From: Onishia taeanensis
GTDB lineage: Bacteria > Pseudomonadota > Gammaproteobacteria > Pseudomonadales > Halomonadaceae
Length of the DNA: 64,000 nt
Assembly: GCF_013349955.1 (NCBI RefSeq)
Contig: NZ_JABVXC010000005.1
Span: 113,679 to 177,678, forward strand
Direction of reading: 5' to 3'
The position numbers were made by a program, and so were the translations under genes. The notes under the pieces are model-generated. The model saw only the letters and a list, made by a program, of their open reading frames with translations, made no database searches and was not told the DNA's origin. Of this stretch, positions 53,599 to 64,000 are shown one piece after another; within the stretch, counting starts at the first letter, position 1, and every line of letters starts with the position of its first letter.

Positions 53599-54819
53599 AT
53601 GAAGCTCAAGTGCCTGACACTGGAAAACTTTCGTGCCAAGCCCTCTCTGTCGATGACATTGGGGCCGCGCCTGACCCTGCTGATGGGCGCGAATGGCAGC
53701 GGCAAGACCACGCTGCTGGACGGTATCGCCATCGGGCTCGGTGAAATCCTCACCTATCTGCCTGGTGTGTCGGGCATGACCTTCAAGAAACGCGGTGAGA
53801 TACATCAGCGGGATAACCGCCTGGCTCCCTTCACGCGGATTAGCCTGGAAACCCCGCAGGGGCTGGGCTGGGACCGCCTGCAGCGGCGCGACAACAGCAA
53901 GAAGACGACCGGCGAGATTCCCCCGGGGCGAGGCGTGAAGGCGCTCAAGCAGCACCTGGACACTTCTGTGATCGAGCCCTGGTCGGCCGGTGAATCCTTC
54001 GAACTGCCGGTGTTTGCCTATTATGGCGTCAGCCGCGCTTTGCTGGATTTGCCCCGGAGTCGCAAAGGATTTCCCAAGTCACATGAACGCTTCGATGCCC
54101 TGGCCAATGCGCTGAACGCCGATACGCGCTTCAAGTCGGCCTTCGTCTGGTTCTACAACAAGGAAAACGAGGAGCATCGCCTGCAGAAGCAGCACAAAAG
54201 CTTCGATGTGACACTTCCCGAGCTGGACGCCGTCCGCCGTGCCATCACACGGTTGTTTCCGGACCTATCCGAGCCGCATGTCGAGCTCAATCCACTGCGT
54301 TTCGCGGTGAAGCAGGAAGGCGAGTGGCTTGACATCGCCCAGCTCAGCGATGGCTATCAGACCCTGTTGGGTTTGGTCATAGATCTCAGTTCACGCATGG
54401 CCATGGCCAATCCGCAGCTGGACGATCCGCTGGCAGCCGAAGCGGTGGTGATGATCGACGAAGTCGATCTGCACTTGCATCCCGAGTGGCAGCGGCGAGT
54501 GCTGGGAGACCTGCTGGCCACCTTCTCCAATACCCAGTTCATCGTCACCACGCATAGCCCCTTTATCGTCGAGGCGCTCAACAATCACCTCAAGCGCAGC
54601 CAGATCGACGGCCTCGAGATCGCCAGCGAGTCCATCCGGTCACTGCTGCCGCTTTCGCCGGAAGAGGTGGCTGCCTATCACGTGACGCCGGACGAGGCTC
54701 AGTCGCTGATGGATGCCGATCTGGGCCTGCTCGATGACAAGCTGCTCGGCCACTTCAATGCCATCAATCGTCTCTATGACGAGATGCGAGATATCGAGTG
54801 GGAGCATCGCGAGGCATGA
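53599..54819 (+). CDS. AAA (ABC/RecF-like) ATPase, candidate defence-pair subunit
   Basis: 406 residues. Walker A GANGSGKTT (30-38) after MKLKCLTLENFRAKP; signature-like LSDGYQTLLGLV (~253); Walker B VVMIDEVDLHLHPEWQ (~285); switch histidine in FIVTTHSPFIVEA (~318). This is the RecF/Rad50-like AAA_21/AAA_15 architecture used by OLD, PtuA, RloA and similar nuclease-coupled ATPases, with only a short helical insert in place of a long coiled coil. No nuclease domain of its own. Its stop overlaps the next start (ATGA), so it is translationally coupled to a PD-(D/E)XK protein. Base composition resembles the host. Confidence 0.9.
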   Translation: MKLKCLTLENFRAKPSLSMTLGPRLTLLMGANGSGKTTLLDGIAIGLGEILTYLPGVSGMTFKKRGEIHQRDNRLAPFTRISLETPQGLGWDRLQRRDNSKKTTGEIPPGRGVKALKQHLDTSVIEPWSAGESFELPVFAYYGVSRALLDLPRSRKGFPKSHERFDALANALNADTRFKSAFVWFYNKENEEHRLQKQHKSFDVTLPELDAVRRAITRLFPDLSEPHVELNPLRFAVKQEGEWLDIAQLSDGYQTLLGLVIDLSSRMAMANPQLDDPLAAEAVVMIDEVDLHLHPEWQRRVLGDLLATFSNTQFIVTTHSPFIVEALNNHLKRSQIDGLEIASESIRSLLPLSPEEVAAYHVTPDEAQSLMDADLGLLDDKLLGHFNAINRLYDEMRDIEWEHREA

Positions 54820-55313
54820 ACCTGGGCGAGTATCAGCACTGCGTGTGCCGCAAGATGGGCAACACACAGGCGCAGTGCCTCGGGGAGTACACGCTCGGTG
54901 AGCAGGGCAAGCTGGTTCGCCTGACCCCCAAGACAGGAGAGCGGGGCGTCGCTGTCGTGCTGGATGGCTGCGTGTTGCGTGACAACCAACCGAAGTGCGA
55001 TGGCCTCTTCCTCTGGCAGGGCAATCAACGCCATGCGGCCGTGCTCGTCGAACTCAAGGGAGCCGGTGATATTCCGCATGCCTTCGAGCAGTTGGCCTAT
55101 GTGAAGCGTCATCGGGCGGAATATCGGCAGCTGGTGGCTTGCCTGGAAGAGGAAGCACGCGGGCGGGTAGCGGAAAAAGCCGTGGTGGTAACCAACGGCC
55201 TGCTGCCCAAGCCGGAACAGGAACGGCTGGAGAACCACCACGGCATCCGAGTGATGGCCGTCATACACTGCGAAGCCAGCTCGCCAATCCCGGATGTCCG
55301 GGATTATCTCTGA
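54816..55313 (+). CDS. PD-(D/E)XK nuclease-like protein coupled to the AAA ATPase
   Basis: 165 residues from ATG 54816, overlapping the ATPase stop by 4 nt. I read a RecB-type nuclease core: D62 in KCDGLFLW, E79 and K81 in VLVELKGAG (the D...ExK triad), then Q92 with Y95 in FEQLAYVKRH (the QxxxY helix of that superfamily). N-terminal residues 1-50 carry three cysteines. No other domain. I do not recognise a named family; the assignment to the nuclease superfamily is from motif order and spacing. Together with the ATPase it forms a two-gene module. Confidence 0.72.
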   Translation: MNLGEYQHCVCRKMGNTQAQCLGEYTLGEQGKLVRLTPKTGERGVAVVLDGCVLRDNQPKCDGLFLWQGNQRHAAVLVELKGAGDIPHAFEQLAYVKRHRAEYRQLVACLEEEARGRVAEKAVVVTNGLLPKPEQERLENHHGIRVMAVIHCEASSPIPDVRDYL

Positions 55314-56285: not shown

Positions 56286-56565
56286 ATGGCCGATCACACC
56301 GCCGAACCTCGCATTACCCTGCATCCGCATTCCCGGCGGGTTCGCATCCTCGATGGTGACACTCTGCTCGCCGATACCCGCAACGCCATCGAATTGTGTG
56401 ACGTGGTTATCCACCTAGACAATATTTGCCGCGTGCGGGTGTGGATATGTCGAAGCTCTCGGTTTCCTCTACCGTCACCCACTGTCCGTTCAAGGGCGGT
56501 ATCAACTATTACTCACTGGTGGATGTGGCTTGGTTTCATGAACAAGCTGCTTGCGAGAAATAGAA
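56286..56565 (+). pseudogene. Frameshifted DUF427 gene
   Basis: The first 38 codons (MADHTAEPRITLHPHSRRVR...) match the intact DUF427 protein at 47309. After NAIELC a single-base deletion (GACGTGG where the intact copy has GAGCGTGG) shifts the frame; the +1 frame then continues with RGYPPRQYLPRAGVDMSKLS, SSTVTHCPFKGG and VDVAWFHEQ. The 3' end is shortened and stops at AAATAG just before A+T-rich DNA begins. Thus both frameshifted and truncated, relative to its sister. Confidence 0.85.
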
Positions 56566-56699
56566 TCTTGGTGGGAAGCTGATATTTCACCTCGGGAAAG
56601 TGCTAGCTAAAAAGTCTTTGGGAACATAAAAATCACTGATGGAATGATTTGTAAATACAGTGTTTTAAATATACAGATTTGAAAATAAGGTTGCTGGTT

Positions 56700-59609
56700 A
56701 TGAATGATCCTAAAGGCTCATTGTGGCGAAAGTGGGATATGCACGTCCATACCCCATACTCGATATTGAACAATCAGTTCGGCGAAGATTTTGATGAGTA
56801 TGTGGTGAGGCTGTTTAAGTCTGCCATTGAGCGTGGAGTGGAGGCTATTGGTATTACAGATTACTGTATTATTGATGGGTATAAAAAGCTGGTGAAAGAT
56901 TATTTGAATGATGAGAAAAAATTAAAGTGTTTGTTTTCTGATGAAGAGGTAGAAAAAATAAGAAAAATAGCTGTATTTCCTAATCTTGAGTTTCGTCTTA
57001 ATAAGCTTGTTATTGGGAATGAAGTTGACTTAAAGTGGAATAGAAAAACTAACTTTCATGTGCTTCTCTCAAATGAGTTGACTCCAGAAGTTATAGAGGA
57101 AGAGTTTCTTTCTCGCGTTGAGTTCGAAATTCAGGCTATACCTGGGCAAAGAGCGGAAAGAAGGGGGTTGTCCAAGTCTAACTTGGAAGCTTATGGGCGC
57201 CAATTGATTGATCAGCACCCCAAGTTTTCTGGGAAAAACCCACTAGCTGTCGGGATATGCAATGCATCTGTAGACTCAGGAGAAATTGCAGATATATTAT
57301 ATTCTGATGCAAGGCTTAAGAGGAAATATTTGCTAGCCCTTCCTTGTGATGAAGATCTTAGTATAGTCAGTTGGGATTCAGCTGGACATGGGCTCAGGAA
57401 AACATTAATTCAACAAAGCCAGCTGGTTTTCTCCTCAAATAAAAATACACGAAAATTTCTGTTGGGTGGATTTCACGGCACTGTTTCCGAATTCAAAAAA
57501 GAATTCGGTTTGCCCAAGGCATGTATTTGGGGATCAGATGCGCATAGTTATGAAGGCTTGTTTAATCCTGATGAAAATAGGAATACTTGGATAAAAGCTG
57601 ACTTGACTTTTGAAGGGCTCAAGCAAGTTGTTTTTGAACCACAGTTTAGAGTTGCTATACAAGAGACTTGTCCTAGCAAGAAGACTGGTTATGAAGTTAT
57701 AGATTCGGTAAGGTTTATCGATAGCTCTGGAAAAGGTTTGTTTCAAGAGGGTGAAATAAATGTCAACCCTGAGCTAACTTCAATAATTGGTGGGAAGTCG
57801 TCGGGTAAATCGTTGTTGTTGTACCATATCGCAAAAACCGCAAACCGCGATGAAACAGAAAAAAAGCGATCTCTGGCGGGAGCTAGCAGCTATAATGAGT
57901 TGTTTGATGAGAAGGCTTTTGACTTTGAAGTTCTTTGGGCCGATGGTAGTGTTCAGAGGTTGAAGGAGAGGAATGCACAAAAGCCAATTACTTATATACC
58001 CCAGTTGTATATTAACAAGCTTGCTGAAGAGAACGGTAGGGATCAGCTTAACGAGCTGGTTTTAGAAGTTATATTCCAAGATGCTTCTGTCAAGCAAAGA
58101 GTGGAGAGTCTTTATAAAGAGCGCGATGTTACAAATGAAAGAATTGGATCGGCTGTGGCCAAGCTAGTTGGGTTGAGGCATCAGTATTCAAGAGCAAAAA
58201 AAGAATTAGAAAATATCGGAGATTTCGAGTCTGTCAAAAAAGAAATAGAGCGGATAAATAATGAAATTGAGCGCGTTCAAAAATCTTCTGGGTTTACACC
58301 TGAAGAGCACCAAGAATACAAGAGCCTGTCTTCTAGGTTGTCTAGGATAGAAAAGCGTAAAGTTTCAATAGAGCTGTTTTCCTCTAACCTTCAAGAGTTG
58401 GGTGATAACCTTGTTGATGAGATTGAATCATCATTGTCAAATGTTGGAATTTATTTAGGTGATGCAAATAGTTCTCCAAAAATCAGTGTTTCCGAGAAAC
58501 TAGCTTCGACGGTCTCCGGGGGGCTCTCTAAGTTAAAGCTTGACATCCAACAAGAAGTTGGTTTTGCAAGAAGTCGCGCAGAAAAGTTGTGTGAGAAGCT
58601 GAAAGCTCAAGAAGTAGCAACCTCTACGGCTCTCGAACAGTTTTCAAAAAAGATAAAAAGCCAAGAAGAGTTGAAAGATCTCCAAGCTTTTCTGAAAAAA
58701 CAAGAGCTAAAGCTCAAGTCGATTGAAGAAGCTGAAAAAGATGTTCAGTTGGTGAGAAAACAAGGCGGAGATATAGCTGCACAGCTACGTAATCTATATT
58801 CACATCTTTTTTCTATATATAAAGATATGGAGGGTGTTTTTAATGATGCCGCAGATGTAGATAGCGAAGTGATTAAGCTAATAGCAAGCGTTGAGTTTGA
58901 TCACGATCGCTTTGATAGTTTCATTGGCTGTTTTGATGGTAGGGGTAGTCTGAGTAGTTTGCTGGGCTGTTCTATAGACGAAGCTAATAGATATAAATAT
59001 AGAAAAGATAGTCACATTGAATCGATATTTGAGATTGTAGAGAAAACTCGTGATTTTTCTAAAATATCGAAAAAAGTTAAAAAGAGTGTTGATGAAGAAG
59101 CATTATTAAGAAATTTGCTGCAAGATTGCTTTTATATATCTTTCGATCTTTTGTATAAAGATGATGACATTATATCTATGTCGCCAGGTAAGCGTGGTTT
59201 GGTTTTGATTAATCTTATACTTCATCTCAGCAATTCTTCCCATCCAATTCTTATTGATCAGCCTGAAGATAATCTAGACAACCGAACTGTGTATAATGAG
59301 CTTAGAGATTTTGTTAGAGAAAGAAAAGTGGGGCGGCAAATAATAATGGTTACACATAACGCAAACATGGTTGTGTCTACTGATTCGGAATGCGTTGTTG
59401 TTGCGAATCAATCTGGGCAGCAAAGGGGTGTGGAAAATGAAAGCTGTAAGTTTGAGTATGTCTCCGGCGCTATTGAGTACACGTTCATAAACTTACAAGC
59501 ACCGTCTGTTCTAAAGGCTTATGGGATTCGAGAGCATATATGTGAAGTTCTAGAAGGCGGTCAGCTTGCATTCGAGGAACGAGAAAGAAAGTATGCTTTT
59601 AGATCCTGA
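56700..59609 (+). CDS. TrlF-family PHP-domain/SMC-like ATPase
   Basis: 969 residues. N-terminal PHP phosphoesterase domain: DMHVHTPYS gives the metal pair H15/H17, GITDY D54, further acidic residues in FPNLEFRL and GNEVDL, and the late motif WGSDAHSYE. The ATPase has Walker A GGKSSGKS (~363), a long coiled coil (~450-720), Walker B LIDQPEDNLDNR (~850) and a switch histidine in IMVTHNANMVV. This is the TrlF arrangement: SMC-like ATP sensor plus metal-dependent PHP hydrolase/nuclease. Composition is strikingly A+T rich against host genes on both sides, pointing to transfer. ATG 56700 has AAGG upstream; a TTG at 56679 is possible. Confidence 0.85.
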   Translation: MNDPKGSLWRKWDMHVHTPYSILNNQFGEDFDEYVVRLFKSAIERGVEAIGITDYCIIDGYKKLVKDYLNDEKKLKCLFSDEEVEKIRKIAVFPNLEFRLNKLVIGNEVDLKWNRKTNFHVLLSNELTPEVIEEEFLSRVEFEIQAIPGQRAERRGLSKSNLEAYGRQLIDQHPKFSGKNPLAVGICNASVDSGEIADILYSDARLKRKYLLALPCDEDLSIVSWDSAGHGLRKTLIQQSQLVFSSNKNTRKFLLGGFHGTVSEFKKEFGLPKACIWGSDAHSYEGLFNPDENRNTWIKADLTFEGLKQVVFEPQFRVAIQETCPSKKTGYEVIDSVRFIDSSGKGLFQEGEINVNPELTSIIGGKSSGKSLLLYHIAKTANRDETEKKRSLAGASSYNELFDEKAFDFEVLWADGSVQRLKERNAQKPITYIPQLYINKLAEENGRDQLNELVLEVIFQDASVKQRVESLYKERDVTNERIGSAVAKLVGLRHQYSRAKKELENIGDFESVKKEIERINNEIERVQKSSGFTPEEHQEYKSLSSRLSRIEKRKVSIELFSSNLQELGDNLVDEIESSLSNVGIYLGDANSSPKISVSEKLASTVSGGLSKLKLDIQQEVGFARSRAEKLCEKLKAQEVATSTALEQFSKKIKSQEELKDLQAFLKKQELKLKSIEEAEKDVQLVRKQGGDIAAQLRNLYSHLFSIYKDMEGVFNDAADVDSEVIKLIASVEFDHDRFDSFIGCFDGRGSLSSLLGCSIDEANRYKYRKDSHIESIFEIVEKTRDFSKISKKVKKSVDEEALLRNLLQDCFYISFDLLYKDDDIISMSPGKRGLVLINLILHLSNSSHPILIDQPEDNLDNRTVYNELRDFVRERKVGRQIIMVTHNANMVVSTDSECVVVANQSGQQRGVENESCKFEYVSGAIEYTFINLQAPSVLKAYGIREHICEVLEGGQLAFEERERKYAFRS

Positions 59610-59665
59610 TGTGTGTCGGGTTTCGGATGATTAACTGCTCGTTTGGCAAAAGAACTTGCACCAGC

Positions 59666-59836
59666 TCATACCCCACTCACCCGCATCTCTCGCCGCTGCG
59701 CCGCGCCCATCAGCTGGCCGCGGCCAGTTTCCACCAGCGTCAGCCAGTGGCGGGTTCGGATGATGACATTGTAGGCCAGCTTCCGGGTGAGGATGGGGTT
59801 CGGCGCGTCGAGCAGCACCAGCGCGGCGTGGGTGGA
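59666..59836 (-). pseudogene. Duplicated 3' end of recD (remnant)
   Basis: The minus strand encodes about 55 residues matching the RecD C-terminus (THAALVLLDAPNPILTRKL, RHWLTLVETGRGQLM, AAQRREMRVSG) and ends at an equivalent stop. By eye it is near 89% identical to 60689-60860 over ~166 nt, including a 47-of-48 identical block. It has no 5' part: the homology breaks off at A+T-rich DNA just upstream. Interpreted as the old or incoming recD end left by an insertion. Confidence 0.85.
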
Positions 59837-59840
59837 TAAT

Positions 59841-59861
59841 CGGGGGCTGTCCCCGTTTTTT
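59841..59861 (+). terminator. Terminator-like hairpin with T run
   Basis: CGGGG/CCCCG stem with a 5-nt loop followed by TTTTTT, at the junction between the recD remnant and A+T-rich DNA. It could end transcription from the TrlF-like gene 230 nt upstream, or be a leftover of the inserted element. Confidence 0.6.
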
Positions 59862-59901
59862 CCAATATTGGGCGCTCTTTCGCATATAAAATACCGCATC
59901 G

Positions 59902-60462
59902 CTAGTACTGAATAATCATACGTCTATAATAATGCGGATCACTTACCTTGGGGTTAAAAATACAGTCCACGAACTCACCATCAGTGCTTCCAAATCCATC
60001 GCTCATGCCGCTGATTACAAAACTACTTCTGTGATTTTCATATATTTCAAAATGAAAGTCCATGAAAAATCCCAAAAAGTCAATGTCGTAAAAGCATTCG
60101 GATTTTCTTCCCGACTCATAAAAACTTTCCCGTTTTGTTGAACCATCATCATACCTGTAACGATCTTCCAGTTTAGACAGCACATCATCTTCGATGCTTT
60201 TCAACTCGGATTTCTGTAAGTCATGTCTGCACTTAAATGCACAAAACAAATAATACCTCGGGTTGCCGGAACTGTACGATCTGGCTGACAGATCTCCCAT
60301 AGTCAGCCCTACTTTTGCAAAAGTATTATTTGCAGCATCGGCAGCCAAATACAACCAGGTCTCTGTTGACTCGAAATCTAGTCTTGATCTCTCCCTGATA
60401 TATTCCAGTTTGTAATCGTCAGAAATATCAATGTCGTCAAGGGTTCTTTTTTCTTTTCTCAA
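59902..60462 (-). CDS. A+T-rich orphan gene, possibly GIY-YIG-like
   Basis: 186 residues in low-GC DNA between the two recD ends. The segment ETWLYLAADAANNTFAKVGL, then SARSYSSGNPRYYLF and KSELKSIEDDVLSKL, has the order seen in GIY-YIG/T5orf172-type domains (Y-x-Y, then KIG-like, then R, then a helix with E), but the signature is degenerate. The C-terminal half is rich in aromatic residues (FLGFFMDFHFEIYENH). I cannot name a family. ATG 60462 has no strong ribosome site. Confidence 0.65.
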   Translation of the reverse strand: MRKEKRTLDDIDISDDYKLEYIRERSRLDFESTETWLYLAADAANNTFAKVGLTMGDLSARSYSSGNPRYYLFCAFKCRHDLQKSELKSIEDDVLSKLEDRYRYDDGSTKRESFYESGRKSECFYDIDFLGFFMDFHFEIYENHRSSFVISGMSDGFGSTDGEFVDCIFNPKVSDPHYYRRMIIQY

Positions 60463-60688
60463 TTTTCTATCCTTTGCTTATAGGAATGTGTCGAATTAAA
60501 GTGGTCATAAAAGTCGTGGCAAATAAAATATTTCACATCATTGCAGTCATGCAAGTCGATATGCTAGTGGGGCACGACCTTCCTGCGTTACCCTAGGCTA
60601 ATCATGACTGGTAATTGCCAATCGTTAACGACTGCTTTTGGCTGAAAGCAGACCTAAACATTGGCTTGAATAAGAGAGCCGAAGCCCA

Positions 60689-62917
60689 TCAGCTCCCCAG
60701 CCCACTCACCCGCATCACCCGTCTCTGCGCCGTGTCCATCAGCTGGCCGCGGCCAGTTTCCACCAGCGTTAGCCAGTGGCGGGCGCGTGTGATGCCGGTG
60801 TAAACCAGCTCCCGGGTGAGGATGGGGTTCGGCGCGTCGGGCAGCACCAGGGCGGCGTGGGTGAACTCCGAGCCCTGTGATTTGTGCACCGTCATCGCGA
60901 ACACCGTCTCCACCGACTGCAGGCGGCTGGGCAGCACCCACTTGATGCGGTCGGTGCCGTCGCCGGCGGGGAAGGCGACCCGCAGCAGGCGGCGATTGTC
61001 GTCGCCGGGCGAGGCGCCCGGGCGCGGCATATCCAGGGTGATGCCGATATCGCCGTTCATCAGCCCCAGGCCGTAGTCGTTCTTGGTGACGAGCACTGGG
61101 CGGCCGGGGTACCAGCGCTGGCGGCCGTCCTGGCTGTCGATCAGCTTCTCCCGCTCCAGCGCCTGGCGCACCCGCTCGTTCAGGCCTTCCACGCCCCATG
61201 AGCCACGGCGCAGCGCGCACAGCAGCTGGAAGTCGCCGTGGGCTGCCAACACGGCACGTGCCCAGTCATCGAAGTCCTGCTGTTCGGCGTCGTCGGTTGG
61301 GCGCCGCTCGGCCATCACGCTCAGGAAGTGGCGATAGCCCACCGGCGGCGGCAGCGTTTCGTCGCGATGTACTCGGCCCTGGCCGGCATGGGGAAAACGC
61401 TCGGGGCAGCCGGTCACCGCTAGGCGGGCCAGGCCGCGCTCGTCGTCGGCGGAAAGCTTCAGGTGCGAAAGGTCGGCGAAGCCGTGGTTGAGGGCGTCGC
61501 CAATCGCTTTGCGCTTGGCGGCGGGCTCGGCTTCCAGGTTGATAGCGGCGGCCAGTTGGCCGATGCCGCTATCTGCCGTGAAGCGGTGGCTGACGCGCAG
61601 CATGGCGATGGCTTGGTCCAGCGGCTGGCCGTCGGCGTCCAGGGTGTCGCTTGGCAGCGGCTGGCCGGTGGCCTCGGCCAGCCACTCGGCGGTGGCCGGG
61701 GTGTAGTGGCCGCCCTCGGCCCGGGCGCACAGGTCGCCGAGCACGGAGCCGGCCTCCACCGAGGCGAGCTGGTCCTTGTCGCCGAGCAGCACCAGCCGCG
61801 CCCGGGGCGGCAGCGCTTCGAGCATCGCGGCCATCATGCCCACGTCCACCATCGAGGCCTCGTCTACCACCAGCACGTCCAGCGGCAGCGGGTTGTGGCG
61901 GTCGTGGCGGAAGCGGCGGGTATCGGGGCGCGAGCCGAGCAATCTATGCAGCGTACTCACCTCTTTCGGAATCACCTCGCGCAGCCGCTCGGGATCGTCG
62001 TCCAGGCCGTCGAGTTCGAGCTTGGCCACCTGGCTGGCGATGGACTCGTTGAGCCGGGCGGCGGCCTTGCCGGTGGGCGCAGCCAGGCGAATGCGCAGGG
62101 CCTGCTTTCCTTCCCCCTCGTCTTCACCGAACGCCAGTGCCTGCAGCAGGGCGAGCAAGCGTACCACGGTGGTGGTCTTGCCGGTGCCGGGTCCGCCGGT
62201 GATCACCGCGAAGCGCGAGCGGCCGGCCAGGGCACAGGCGGCCTTCTGCCAGTCGAGCGGCGCGGGCTGTGTGGGCTCGGGAAACAGCGCATCGAGGATC
62301 GGGCGTAAGCGAGCCGCATCCGGGGCGTCGTCGTTATCCGTTCCCCCGAGCCTTGCGACAATCCGGCTGTGAATATCCTGCTCGTGCTGCCAGTAGCGGC
62401 GCAGGTAGAGGCGTGGGCGCGCATTGGTGCCGGCCAGCACCAGCGGCGTGCTGCCGGGGCCTTCGGCCACTAGCTCGGGCTGAGAAAGCGCCGCGCGCCA
62501 GGCGTCGAGCTCCAGCGCAGTCATCACCCGGCTGGGCAACGGTGGAGGGTCCTCCAGGCTATCGCCCTCTGGCGGCAGCGAGAGCGCCAGGTCCGGGGTG
62601 GCCAGGGTCTGAGCCAGGTCGAGACACACATGGCCGCGGCCGAGCTGGTGGCTGGCCAGCGCCGCCGCCAGCAGCAGCAGGGGTGAGGCCTCACTTACCG
62701 GGCTCCCTTTACTCTCCCTGCTTTCGCGGCTCGCCTCGCGATGCAGAAAGGCGGCGAAGGCGCGGTCCAGCGATCGCAGCCAGCCGCGCTCCACCCAGCG
62801 GTCGAGCAGGGCGAACAGCACCGCGTGATCGGCCAGCGCATATTCGGGCGCTTGAATCAGCGCGGTCTCCGGGGCGTCGGTATTGACCGGGGAGGCGTTG
62901 GAAGATGTCGGCATCAT
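60689..62917 (-). CDS. recD: Exodeoxyribonuclease V subunit alpha (RecD helicase)
   Basis: 742-residue 5'-3' SF1B helicase subunit of RecBCD. Walker A GGPGTGKTTTV near residue 238, motif II VVDEASMVDVGMM, motif III LLGDKDQLASVEAG, then the C-terminal FAMTVHKSQGSEFTHAAL and the motif VI region TGITRARHWL. Start ATG 62917 follows GGAGGCC; it overlaps the recB stop (ATGATG with TGA). A large diverse segment is typical of RecD. Its last ~57 codons are duplicated at 59666-59836, so the current 3' end may have been exchanged by recombination. Confidence 0.95.
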   Translation of the reverse strand: MMPTSSNASPVNTDAPETALIQAPEYALADHAVLFALLDRWVERGWLRSLDRAFAAFLHREASRESRESKGSPVSEASPLLLLAAALASHQLGRGHVCLDLAQTLATPDLALSLPPEGDSLEDPPPLPSRVMTALELDAWRAALSQPELVAEGPGSTPLVLAGTNARPRLYLRRYWQHEQDIHSRIVARLGGTDNDDAPDAARLRPILDALFPEPTQPAPLDWQKAACALAGRSRFAVITGGPGTGKTTTVVRLLALLQALAFGEDEGEGKQALRIRLAAPTGKAAARLNESIASQVAKLELDGLDDDPERLREVIPKEVSTLHRLLGSRPDTRRFRHDRHNPLPLDVLVVDEASMVDVGMMAAMLEALPPRARLVLLGDKDQLASVEAGSVLGDLCARAEGGHYTPATAEWLAEATGQPLPSDTLDADGQPLDQAIAMLRVSHRFTADSGIGQLAAAINLEAEPAAKRKAIGDALNHGFADLSHLKLSADDERGLARLAVTGCPERFPHAGQGRVHRDETLPPPVGYRHFLSVMAERRPTDDAEQQDFDDWARAVLAAHGDFQLLCALRRGSWGVEGLNERVRQALEREKLIDSQDGRQRWYPGRPVLVTKNDYGLGLMNGDIGITLDMPRPGASPGDDNRRLLRVAFPAGDGTDRIKWVLPSRLQSVETVFAMTVHKSQGSEFTHAALVLPDAPNPILTRELVYTGITRARHWLTLVETGRGQLMDTAQRRVMRVSGLGS

Positions 62918-64000
62918 GTGGCGGCCTCCTCGGCACTGAACAGGGCATCGAGCGCTAGGATCAGCTCGCTTGGCGGGCGTTCGGCGTGTACGCCACGGGA
63001 GGGCGCGCGGGTGCCGCGCAGGAAGACGTAAAGCGCTCCGCCCAGGTGGCGTTCGATATCGTAGTCCGGCAGCCTGGCCTTGAGTAGCCGGTGCAGGGCC
63101 AGCAGGTAGAGGCAGTACTGCACGTCGTAGCGCTTCTCAAGCACGGCCTCAAACATCGCCGCCTCGGTGTAGGCGGCATCGTCCGCGCCCAGGTGGTTGG
63201 ACTTCCAGTCGAGCACATAGAAGCGCCCCTCGTGTTCCACCACCAGGTCGATAAAGCCCTTGAGCATGCCGTTGAGCGTATCGGGCTCGAGCGCTGGCCT
63301 TGGGCGCCCACCGAGTGTGTGAGTGCTTACAAGGGCGTCCAGTTGGCGGGTGTCGACCTTATGGGCGGCGAACCAGAATTCCAGCTCGACGCGGTAGTCG
63401 GTGGCGCCGTTTAGAGCAGCGAGGCGCAGCGGTGCGGCCTCGCCATCGCTAGGGGGCGGCACCGGTAGCGGTGTGGTCAAAAGCTCCGGCAACCACTGTT
63501 CGAGTGCGGTGATCTGGCCTTCCCAGCCGCGGCGGTTGGCGCGCCGGGCCAGGGTATCGGCGCGTAGCGCCTCGTCCTCGGACACCTGGGCGAAGCCTTC
63601 TTCGCCAGCCCATTCCAGCAGGCCGTGCAGGAAGGTGCCCGCCGAGGGCCCGCGGGGAAAGCGGTGAAGCGAGCCTTCGCTCACCGTGGCGGCGTTGGCA
63701 TCGAAGGGCTCGTGGATCACCTCCATGGCCGTCGCCTCATCGGCGGTGGTGGGCTCGGGGGAGGGCTCGGCCTCGTCGTCTGCTCCTGAGCTGTCCTCAT
63801 CCGGGGTGGCGCCGGTGCGCAGCGCCGAGTAGCTGGCGATCCACCAGTGCTCGCGGATCTTTCGAGTGGGCGCGCGGGCCTCACCCAGCGGCACATCATC
63901 GCTGGCAAGCTCCACCGGCGTGGCATCGGCCTCTGGGGCGTCCTGCACCGTGACTCTCTGGGCACAATCGCCAGGGTTCTTGTCGGCCAGCGCTTCGAGC
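62914..64000 (-). CDS. recB: Exodeoxyribonuclease V subunit beta RecB, C-terminal part
   Basis: The frame is open to the window edge, leaving the C-terminal 361 residues: the linker and the nuclease domain. The nuclease site is visible as GFIDLVVEHEGRFYVLDWKS (D...DxK), followed by a Y-rich helix (YDVQYCLYLLALHR) with the QxxxY motif. A potential GTG at 63948 is internal, not the true start. Its stop TGA overlaps the recD start, giving translational coupling. Confidence 0.95.
   Translation of the reverse strand, partial: LEALADKNPGDCAQRVTVQDAPEADATPVELASDDVPLGEARAPTRKIREHWWIASYSALRTGATPDEDSSGADDEAEPSPEPTTADEATAMEVIHEPFDANAATVSEGSLHRFPRGPSAGTFLHGLLEWAGEEGFAQVSEDEALRADTLARRANRRGWEGQITALEQWLPELLTTPLPVPPPSDGEAAPLRLAALNGATDYRVELEFWFAAHKVDTRQLDALVSTHTLGGRPRPALEPDTLNGMLKGFIDLVVEHEGRFYVLDWKSNHLGADDAAYTEAAMFEAVLEKRYDVQYCLYLLALHRLLKARLPDYDIERHLGGALYVFLRGTRAPSRGVHAERPPSELILALDALFSAEEAAT

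Follow-up and report, generated by a model that had tools for sequence, protein, structure and literature searches.

Extra recD tails mark a hotspot for predicted anti-phage genes in Halomonadaceae

Why should the 3′ end of a housekeeping repair gene occur a second time a short distance downstream of the intact gene? This question is raised by recD in a stretch of 64,000 nucleotides from Onishia taeanensis (contig NZ_JABVXC010000005.1, positions 113,679 to 177,678; the whole stretch is called the window below), where one low-GC gene lies between the two recD ends and another lies just beyond the extra one. An initial annotation, made from the sequence alone, had read the arrangement as an insertion hotspot at which inserts carry or duplicate a recD tail and thereby leave the gene intact. 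Our comparison of this locus with its counterparts in related genomes identifies a family-wide hotspot for predicted anti-phage genes, and points to a probable route of insertion, held with moderate rather than high confidence, in which recD homology guides one end of the insert and the other end is joined non-homologously.

The repeat in the window is 163 nt long, ungapped and 88% identical (Table 1). It spans approximately codons 686–740 of recD, that is the last ~54 codons, and is the sole long direct-repeat family in positions 57000–64000. The two copies are separated by 866 nt, close to the 0.9 kb and near 89% identity that had been judged by eye, and both contain the previously noted block of ~48 nt that differs at one base (CATCAGCTGGCCGCGGCCAGTTTCCACCAGCGT[C/T]AGCCAGTGGCGGG). 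In the 3.84-Mb genome the recD tail matches this extra copy (E = 8.9e-55) and no other second place. As had been described, the gene between the copies, which encodes a 186-aa protein, and the TrlF gene beyond them are both low in GC (39% each, against 70% for recD). The span first marked out (59666–60860) covers the repeat but not the TrlF gene, which also belongs to the locus. An assembly artefact was ruled out, as the copies differ at 12% of their bases and both lie inside one 234-kb contig, and as a like arrangement is found in the single-contig genomes G004, G108, G167, G178 and G237 (genomes and loci are cited by our working numbers, G and L). The extra tail retains an open frame of 77 aa. 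Its mismatches to recD are spread evenly over the three codon positions (6/8/8), which argues that it evolves as a relic.

When 254 genomes of the family were searched for the last 104 residues of RecD, 253 gave a match, and many of these gave several. Counted by hand from the match listings, with second full-length RecD-like genes left out, the window's genome included and G000, G025 and G039 added, short extra recD tails occur in about 52 of the 253 Halomonadaceae-type genomes. A control search with the last 104 aa of RecB gave a second match in at most 11 of 253 (Fisher p about 3e-8 versus recD), and several of these genomes also have a second, near full-length RecD. This difference bears out the proposal of an insertion hotspot at the recD end. 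No recD-tail fragment was found in 98 matching genomes from the order's other families, where the family-specific query is less sensitive.

All 47 extra tails that were mapped beside recD, in 38 genomes, lie on the same strand as recD. Extra tails are 85–474 nt long, with a median identity of 85%, and are located up to 15,454 nt from the recD stop codon (median 1.7 kb). Their decay is evident from a frameshift in 36 of 63 and an in-frame stop in 35 of 63. An internal deletion of ~84 nt between two GGTGCTGCC-type repeats recurs in the extra tails of the distant genomes G004 (L039), G147 (L073), G148 (L074), G161 (L076) and G178 (L081), and may represent either independent events or one variant that has spread.

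The regions after recD were fetched from 60 relatives, giving 61 recD loci with the window. In 31 of these a DUF427 gene (PF04248) is located no more than 13 kb after recD, at a median distance of 5.7 kb. In nearly every genome examined the region that follows recD, as far as DUF427 where this gene was found, contains differing low-GC cargo. The mean GC of open reading frames (ORFs) is 48% between the two flanks and 61% beyond them, and 105 of the 148 cargo ORFs are confined to one genome of those sampled. The largest low-GC cargo ORF from each of 29 loci was compared with PADLOC models at E <= 1e-10, with 10 ORFs located beyond DUF427 as controls. Defence-family matches were obtained for 19 of the 29 cargo ORFs versus two of the 10 controls (Fisher p 0.025), the control matches being one reverse transcriptase and one ATPase. 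Among the matched families are dGTPase, GmrSD-like protein, HerA, CBASS E1-E2, LmuB, OloB, AbiU (twice), Avs5, GajA (Gabija), PifA, DpdJ, and Drt3b and Drt8, both of which are DRT. On this sequence evidence the recD–DUF427 interval is a family-wide hotspot enriched in predicted anti-phage genes, and a place to look for new ones.

Relatives with an unfilled site indicate which of two tails is the older. The distal tail of G157 and its downstream sequence correspond to the sequence straight after recD in G148, G161, G167 and G178 (about 860 nt, 94–96%). Likewise, the distal tail and downstream sequence match the recD end and the sequence following it when G026 is compared with G044 (546 nt, 91%), G108 with G180 (900 nt, 85%), G123 with G161 (471 nt, 93%), G129 with G002 (220 nt, 93%) and G140 with G227 (898 nt, 94%), so that occupied and empty sites agree at 84–96% over 220–900 nt. 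Because the sequence downstream of the distal tail directly follows recD in relatives whose site is unfilled, the distal tail appears to be the displaced native recD end, and the insert appears to have supplied the tail that now completes recD. The earlier suggestion is upheld in that a carried tail keeps recD whole, but the two copies are better described as a newcomer and a displaced native end than as a duplicated native end. Insert-free strains carrying both tails were not seen in this comparison. Where both tail copies share one contig, the insert measures 0.5 to 6.5 kb. No unfilled-site partner for the window's own locus was present among the loci fetched from relatives; judged by the filled and unfilled cases elsewhere, the 186-aa gene would be the newer layer in the window and TrlF the older.

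These comparisons also bear on a simpler explanation, namely that the recD end was duplicated in tandem on the spot and that decay and unrelated insertions came afterwards. Such duplication would give truncated same-strand copies near recD, as observed. We nevertheless consider it very improbable, given that the ancestral downstream sequence is kept by the distal tail and not by the proximal one, that the cargo between the copies is foreign in composition, and that tails of another species' type are found 365 kb from recD in the single-contig genome G171.

The two stray tails of G171 (L053, 8795–10403) flank a GNAT-like gene, recognized by eye, inside a low-GC, defence-like island. They are 94–95% identical to the recD of other species and 80–86% identical to the recD of G171 itself. 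On the simplest reading, this piece would have come from the recD locus of another species and settled elsewhere. Thus, recD tails may tag the origin of defence cargo, and scars like those in G171 may reveal defence genes that have moved between loci and species. Both tail junctions of L053 carry CGGGGACAG repeats similar to the REP-like stretch at the window's junction (Table 1).

We propose that incoming chromosomal DNA from a relative would carry the 3′ end of the donor's recD together with the donor's downstream cargo. The donor recD end would pair with the recipient recD by ordinary homologous recombination, such that recD is completed by the donor tail. At the other end of the insert, the join would be non-homologous and would fall at differing points within the tail that the recipient recD had before. 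This former tail, truncated at its 5′ end, would be pushed away from recD along with its former downstream sequence and would then decay. Repetition of this process would generate layers in the order recD, newest cargo, old tail, older cargo and DUF427, and anti-phage genes could come and go between recD and DUF427 without an integrase of their own.

The junctions between cargo and tails provide evidence on this route. Measured from the PNPIL codons, the tails begin anywhere between about −411 and +42 nt, so that their 5′ starts scatter across more than 400 nt; a fixed attachment site in recD was rejected on this spread. One and the same GGDEF gene end meets recD at a different point in each of six genomes (G136, G168, G180, G025, G138 and G157; GGDEF and PAP2 domains were assigned by domain match). 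Tyrosine-recombinase motifs were matched in just 4 of 76 loci (the 61 recD loci plus 15 others), in one case within a recD–DUF427 interval, and none was matched in the window's locus, in line with the initial impression that no integrase is visible. Serine recombinases were absent from the window's own ORFs by Pfam, no systematic scan having been made of other loci.

Alternatively, the 3′ end of recD might hold an attachment site at which a site-specific recombinase inserted mobile elements, each of them restoring the gene end, the integrases having since been lost. Restoration of a gene end by the insert is classical for integrases, the tail starts cluster mildly near one place, and the recD interval of G052 holds a tyrosine recombinase, fragments of which are present in G284. 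However, the broad spread of starts, the scarcity of recombinase motifs, the frequent occurrence of inserts consisting of a single gene, and the scattering of the recombinase found through genomes without a tie to recD make this explanation improbable. A tyrosine recombinase of ~213 aa (HTxRRTKASLIYRRTKNLRAVQLLLGHTKLESTVRY) was seen near some stray recD tails and defence-like genes (L056 in G246, L045 in G052 and L064 in G044). As a candidate for an integrase carrying a recD tail it was traced through 62 genomes and rejected, its occurrences showing no link to recD.

The main rival is insertion-duplication of the Campbell type, in which a donor fragment comprising a recD tail and cargo circularises and integrates by a single crossover in recD. 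The cargo–tail junction would then be the closure point of the circle, and inserts could leave by recombination between the tails. This process would yield an identical final map, tandem tails that would permit excision are present, and some cargo–tail junctions are common to several species: that of a PAP2 gene is found in six genomes, and that of a HicB-like gene (assigned by eye) in G039 and G123. Shared junctions may be plain inheritance, however, and the junctions of the same GGDEF gene differ among genomes; circular forms were not seen. We therefore regard insertion-duplication as unlikely, though less so than the action of a site-specific recombinase.

A further signal comes from recD itself. 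For close pairs, the agreement of local distance with recB distance declines from ~0.6 in recB to ~0.38 in the last ~150 codons of recD, which fits exchange of that end between lineages. Taken together, the variable starts, the varying GGDEF junctions, the few recombinases, the filled and unfilled sites and the exchange signal at the recD end favour homology-anchored insertion over a site-specific integrase.

Several observations weigh against homology-anchored insertion. With shared junctions removed, 17 of 57 tail starts fall in the 35 nt around the VLPDAPNP codons (uniform expectation ~9.5, maximum 16), part of this clustering being due to the recurrent ~84-nt deletion within tails. The drop in agreement at the recD end is moderate, and its weight is limited by a further dip at codons −459 to −359. 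Tail identity shows no significant fall with distance from recD such as an age trend would predict (rho −0.18, p 0.23). Plasmid, phage and viral collections yielded no vehicle. The RecD tail had matches in 36 plasmid records, 7 phage records and 2 viral contigs; among the matches listed there were annotated recD genes, large unannotated replicons or weak matches, and none resembled a Halomonas-type tail fragment. Finally, no donor was found for the window's insert.

We also considered whether the recD 3′ end might serve as a dedicated landing pad, at which the junction-prone VLPDAPNP stretch and, some tens of bases further downstream, a Chi octamer (GCTGGTGG) make RecBCD-processed foreign DNA recombine. 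Both tails of the window contain the E. coli-type octamer (at 59731 and 60760 on the minus strand); among 61 genomes, 24 have it in the last 330 nt of recD, where it arises from codons for TLVE. This idea is improbable; if true, the repair enzyme's own gene would recruit the cell's anti-phage genes.

Table 1. Features of the recD–DUF427 locus in the window.
Feature	Position	Strand	Remarks
Decayed DUF427 gene	56286..56582	+	Right flank of hotspot; intact copies of relatives match PF04248, window copy does not pass
TrlF family protein, PHP + SMC-like ATPase, 976-aa ORF	56679..59609	+	ATG probably at 56700; NF045780; low-GC cargo, second layer
Distal (extra) recD tail	59672..59834	-	Repeat search; probably the displaced older recD end, decaying
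REP-like palindromic stretch CGGGGGCTGTCCCCG	59835..59870		Junction of cargo side and extra tail; by eye
Low-GC cargo gene, 186 aa	59902..60462	-	Predicted GIY-YIG / T5orf172 fold; between the two recD tails
recD, 742 aa, intact	60689..62917	-	RecD_N, UvrD_C_2 and other helicase domains; left flank of hotspot; recB upstream
Proximal (working) recD tail	60701..60863	-	Repeat search; probably arrived with the 186-aa gene

The TrlF protein of the window scores 585.9 bits against NF045780 (an NCBIfam equivalog), above the cut-off of 350. It has a further match to the anti-phage protein Ppl, at a score under the cut-off of the Ppl profile. A homologue that is 47% identical occupies the same place and direction in G256, which belongs to another genus (L155, 1617–6157); the gene order there is recD, a 339-aa gene, TrlF and DUF427. 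The decay of the window's own DUF427 gene is apparently due to an internal deletion and a frameshift, most relatives' copies being intact.

The 186-aa protein gave no Pfam match and no PADLOC match. Its gene has no relative in the 274 other family genomes, and is thus unique among 275, and no donor was found there. Six relatives of the protein were identified in Pseudomonas, Burkholderiales, a soil metagenome-assembled genome and Enterobacterales (L109–L114). Residues K50, G52, R61 and E122 of the 186-aa protein are conserved. The homologue in Pseudomonas caspiana is located in an island after guaA, beside a DpnII/MboI-type endonuclease, and adjoins a gene that appears by eye to be integrase-like. 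A model of the 186-aa protein was built with AlphaFold2 from seven sequences (mean pLDDT 69). Searched with Foldseek against viral models, it gave T5orf172 proteins as the best matches (E 7.7e-5, probability 1.00), and against the PDB the best match was the GIY-YIG nuclease Slx1 (Z 7.2, rmsd 4.0, 113 residues). Read at this level of model confidence, these matches suggest that the protein is likely a nuclease of the GIY-YIG fold.

Elsewhere in the window (53599–55313), a gene for a PtuA-like ATPase of 406 aa overlaps a 171-aa gene without a family match. Both are also found in relatives (clusters C38 and C111), and they could possibly form a Septu-like pair with an uncharacterised partner.

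No earlier description of a recD defence hotspot, or of recD-tail scars of this kind, was found in the literature searched. The closest known process is the sequential displacement of effector–immunity genes of the type VI secretion system in Vibrio cholerae, for which Kirchberger et al. (2017, PMC5361080) proposed one homologous end and one end joined by homology-facilitated illegitimate recombination. As in those arrays, and as in the displacement of Rhs C-termini, new DNA enters beside a conserved gene and old genes or gene ends are shifted downstream. Unlike these systems, the recD locus is anchored by a housekeeping repair gene whose end is unchanged and which has to remain intact, its cargo consists of unrelated predicted anti-phage systems rather than toxin–immunity pairs, and the displaced pieces are useless recD relics.

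The defence islands of E. coli (Hochhauser et al. 2023, PMC10121019) likewise place defence cargo at conserved positions, but they are located at integrase sites and most are mobile elements that carry integrases; that study mentions neither recD nor recB. The hotspots of Oliveira et al. (2017, PMC5635113) resemble the recD locus more closely in having core flanks, high turnover, almost no integrases and signs of recombination in a flank. Double homologous recombination, as in those hotspots, is traceless, whereas the recD locus has one putatively non-homologous join and retains truncated recD copies. In the core defence hotspots of Pseudomonas aeruginosa (Johnson et al. 2023, PMC10250203), fixed core flanks are nearly always occupied by diverse defence systems with no single mobile element, as at recD. 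Their flanking genes are different (with tRNA or tmRNA nearby) and no scars in a flanking gene were described; homologous transfer was expected to leave no mobile-element scars, and the manner of construction was left open.

How defence hotspots are built without mobile elements has been an open question, since clean homologous exchange is traceless. The recD locus combines features of the hotspots of Oliveira et al. and Johnson et al. and adds scars to them. Each insertion inside recD would have left a directional scar, so that the many sequenced strains of one family offer a record of the defence genes that entered, of the species that supplied them and of the type of join.

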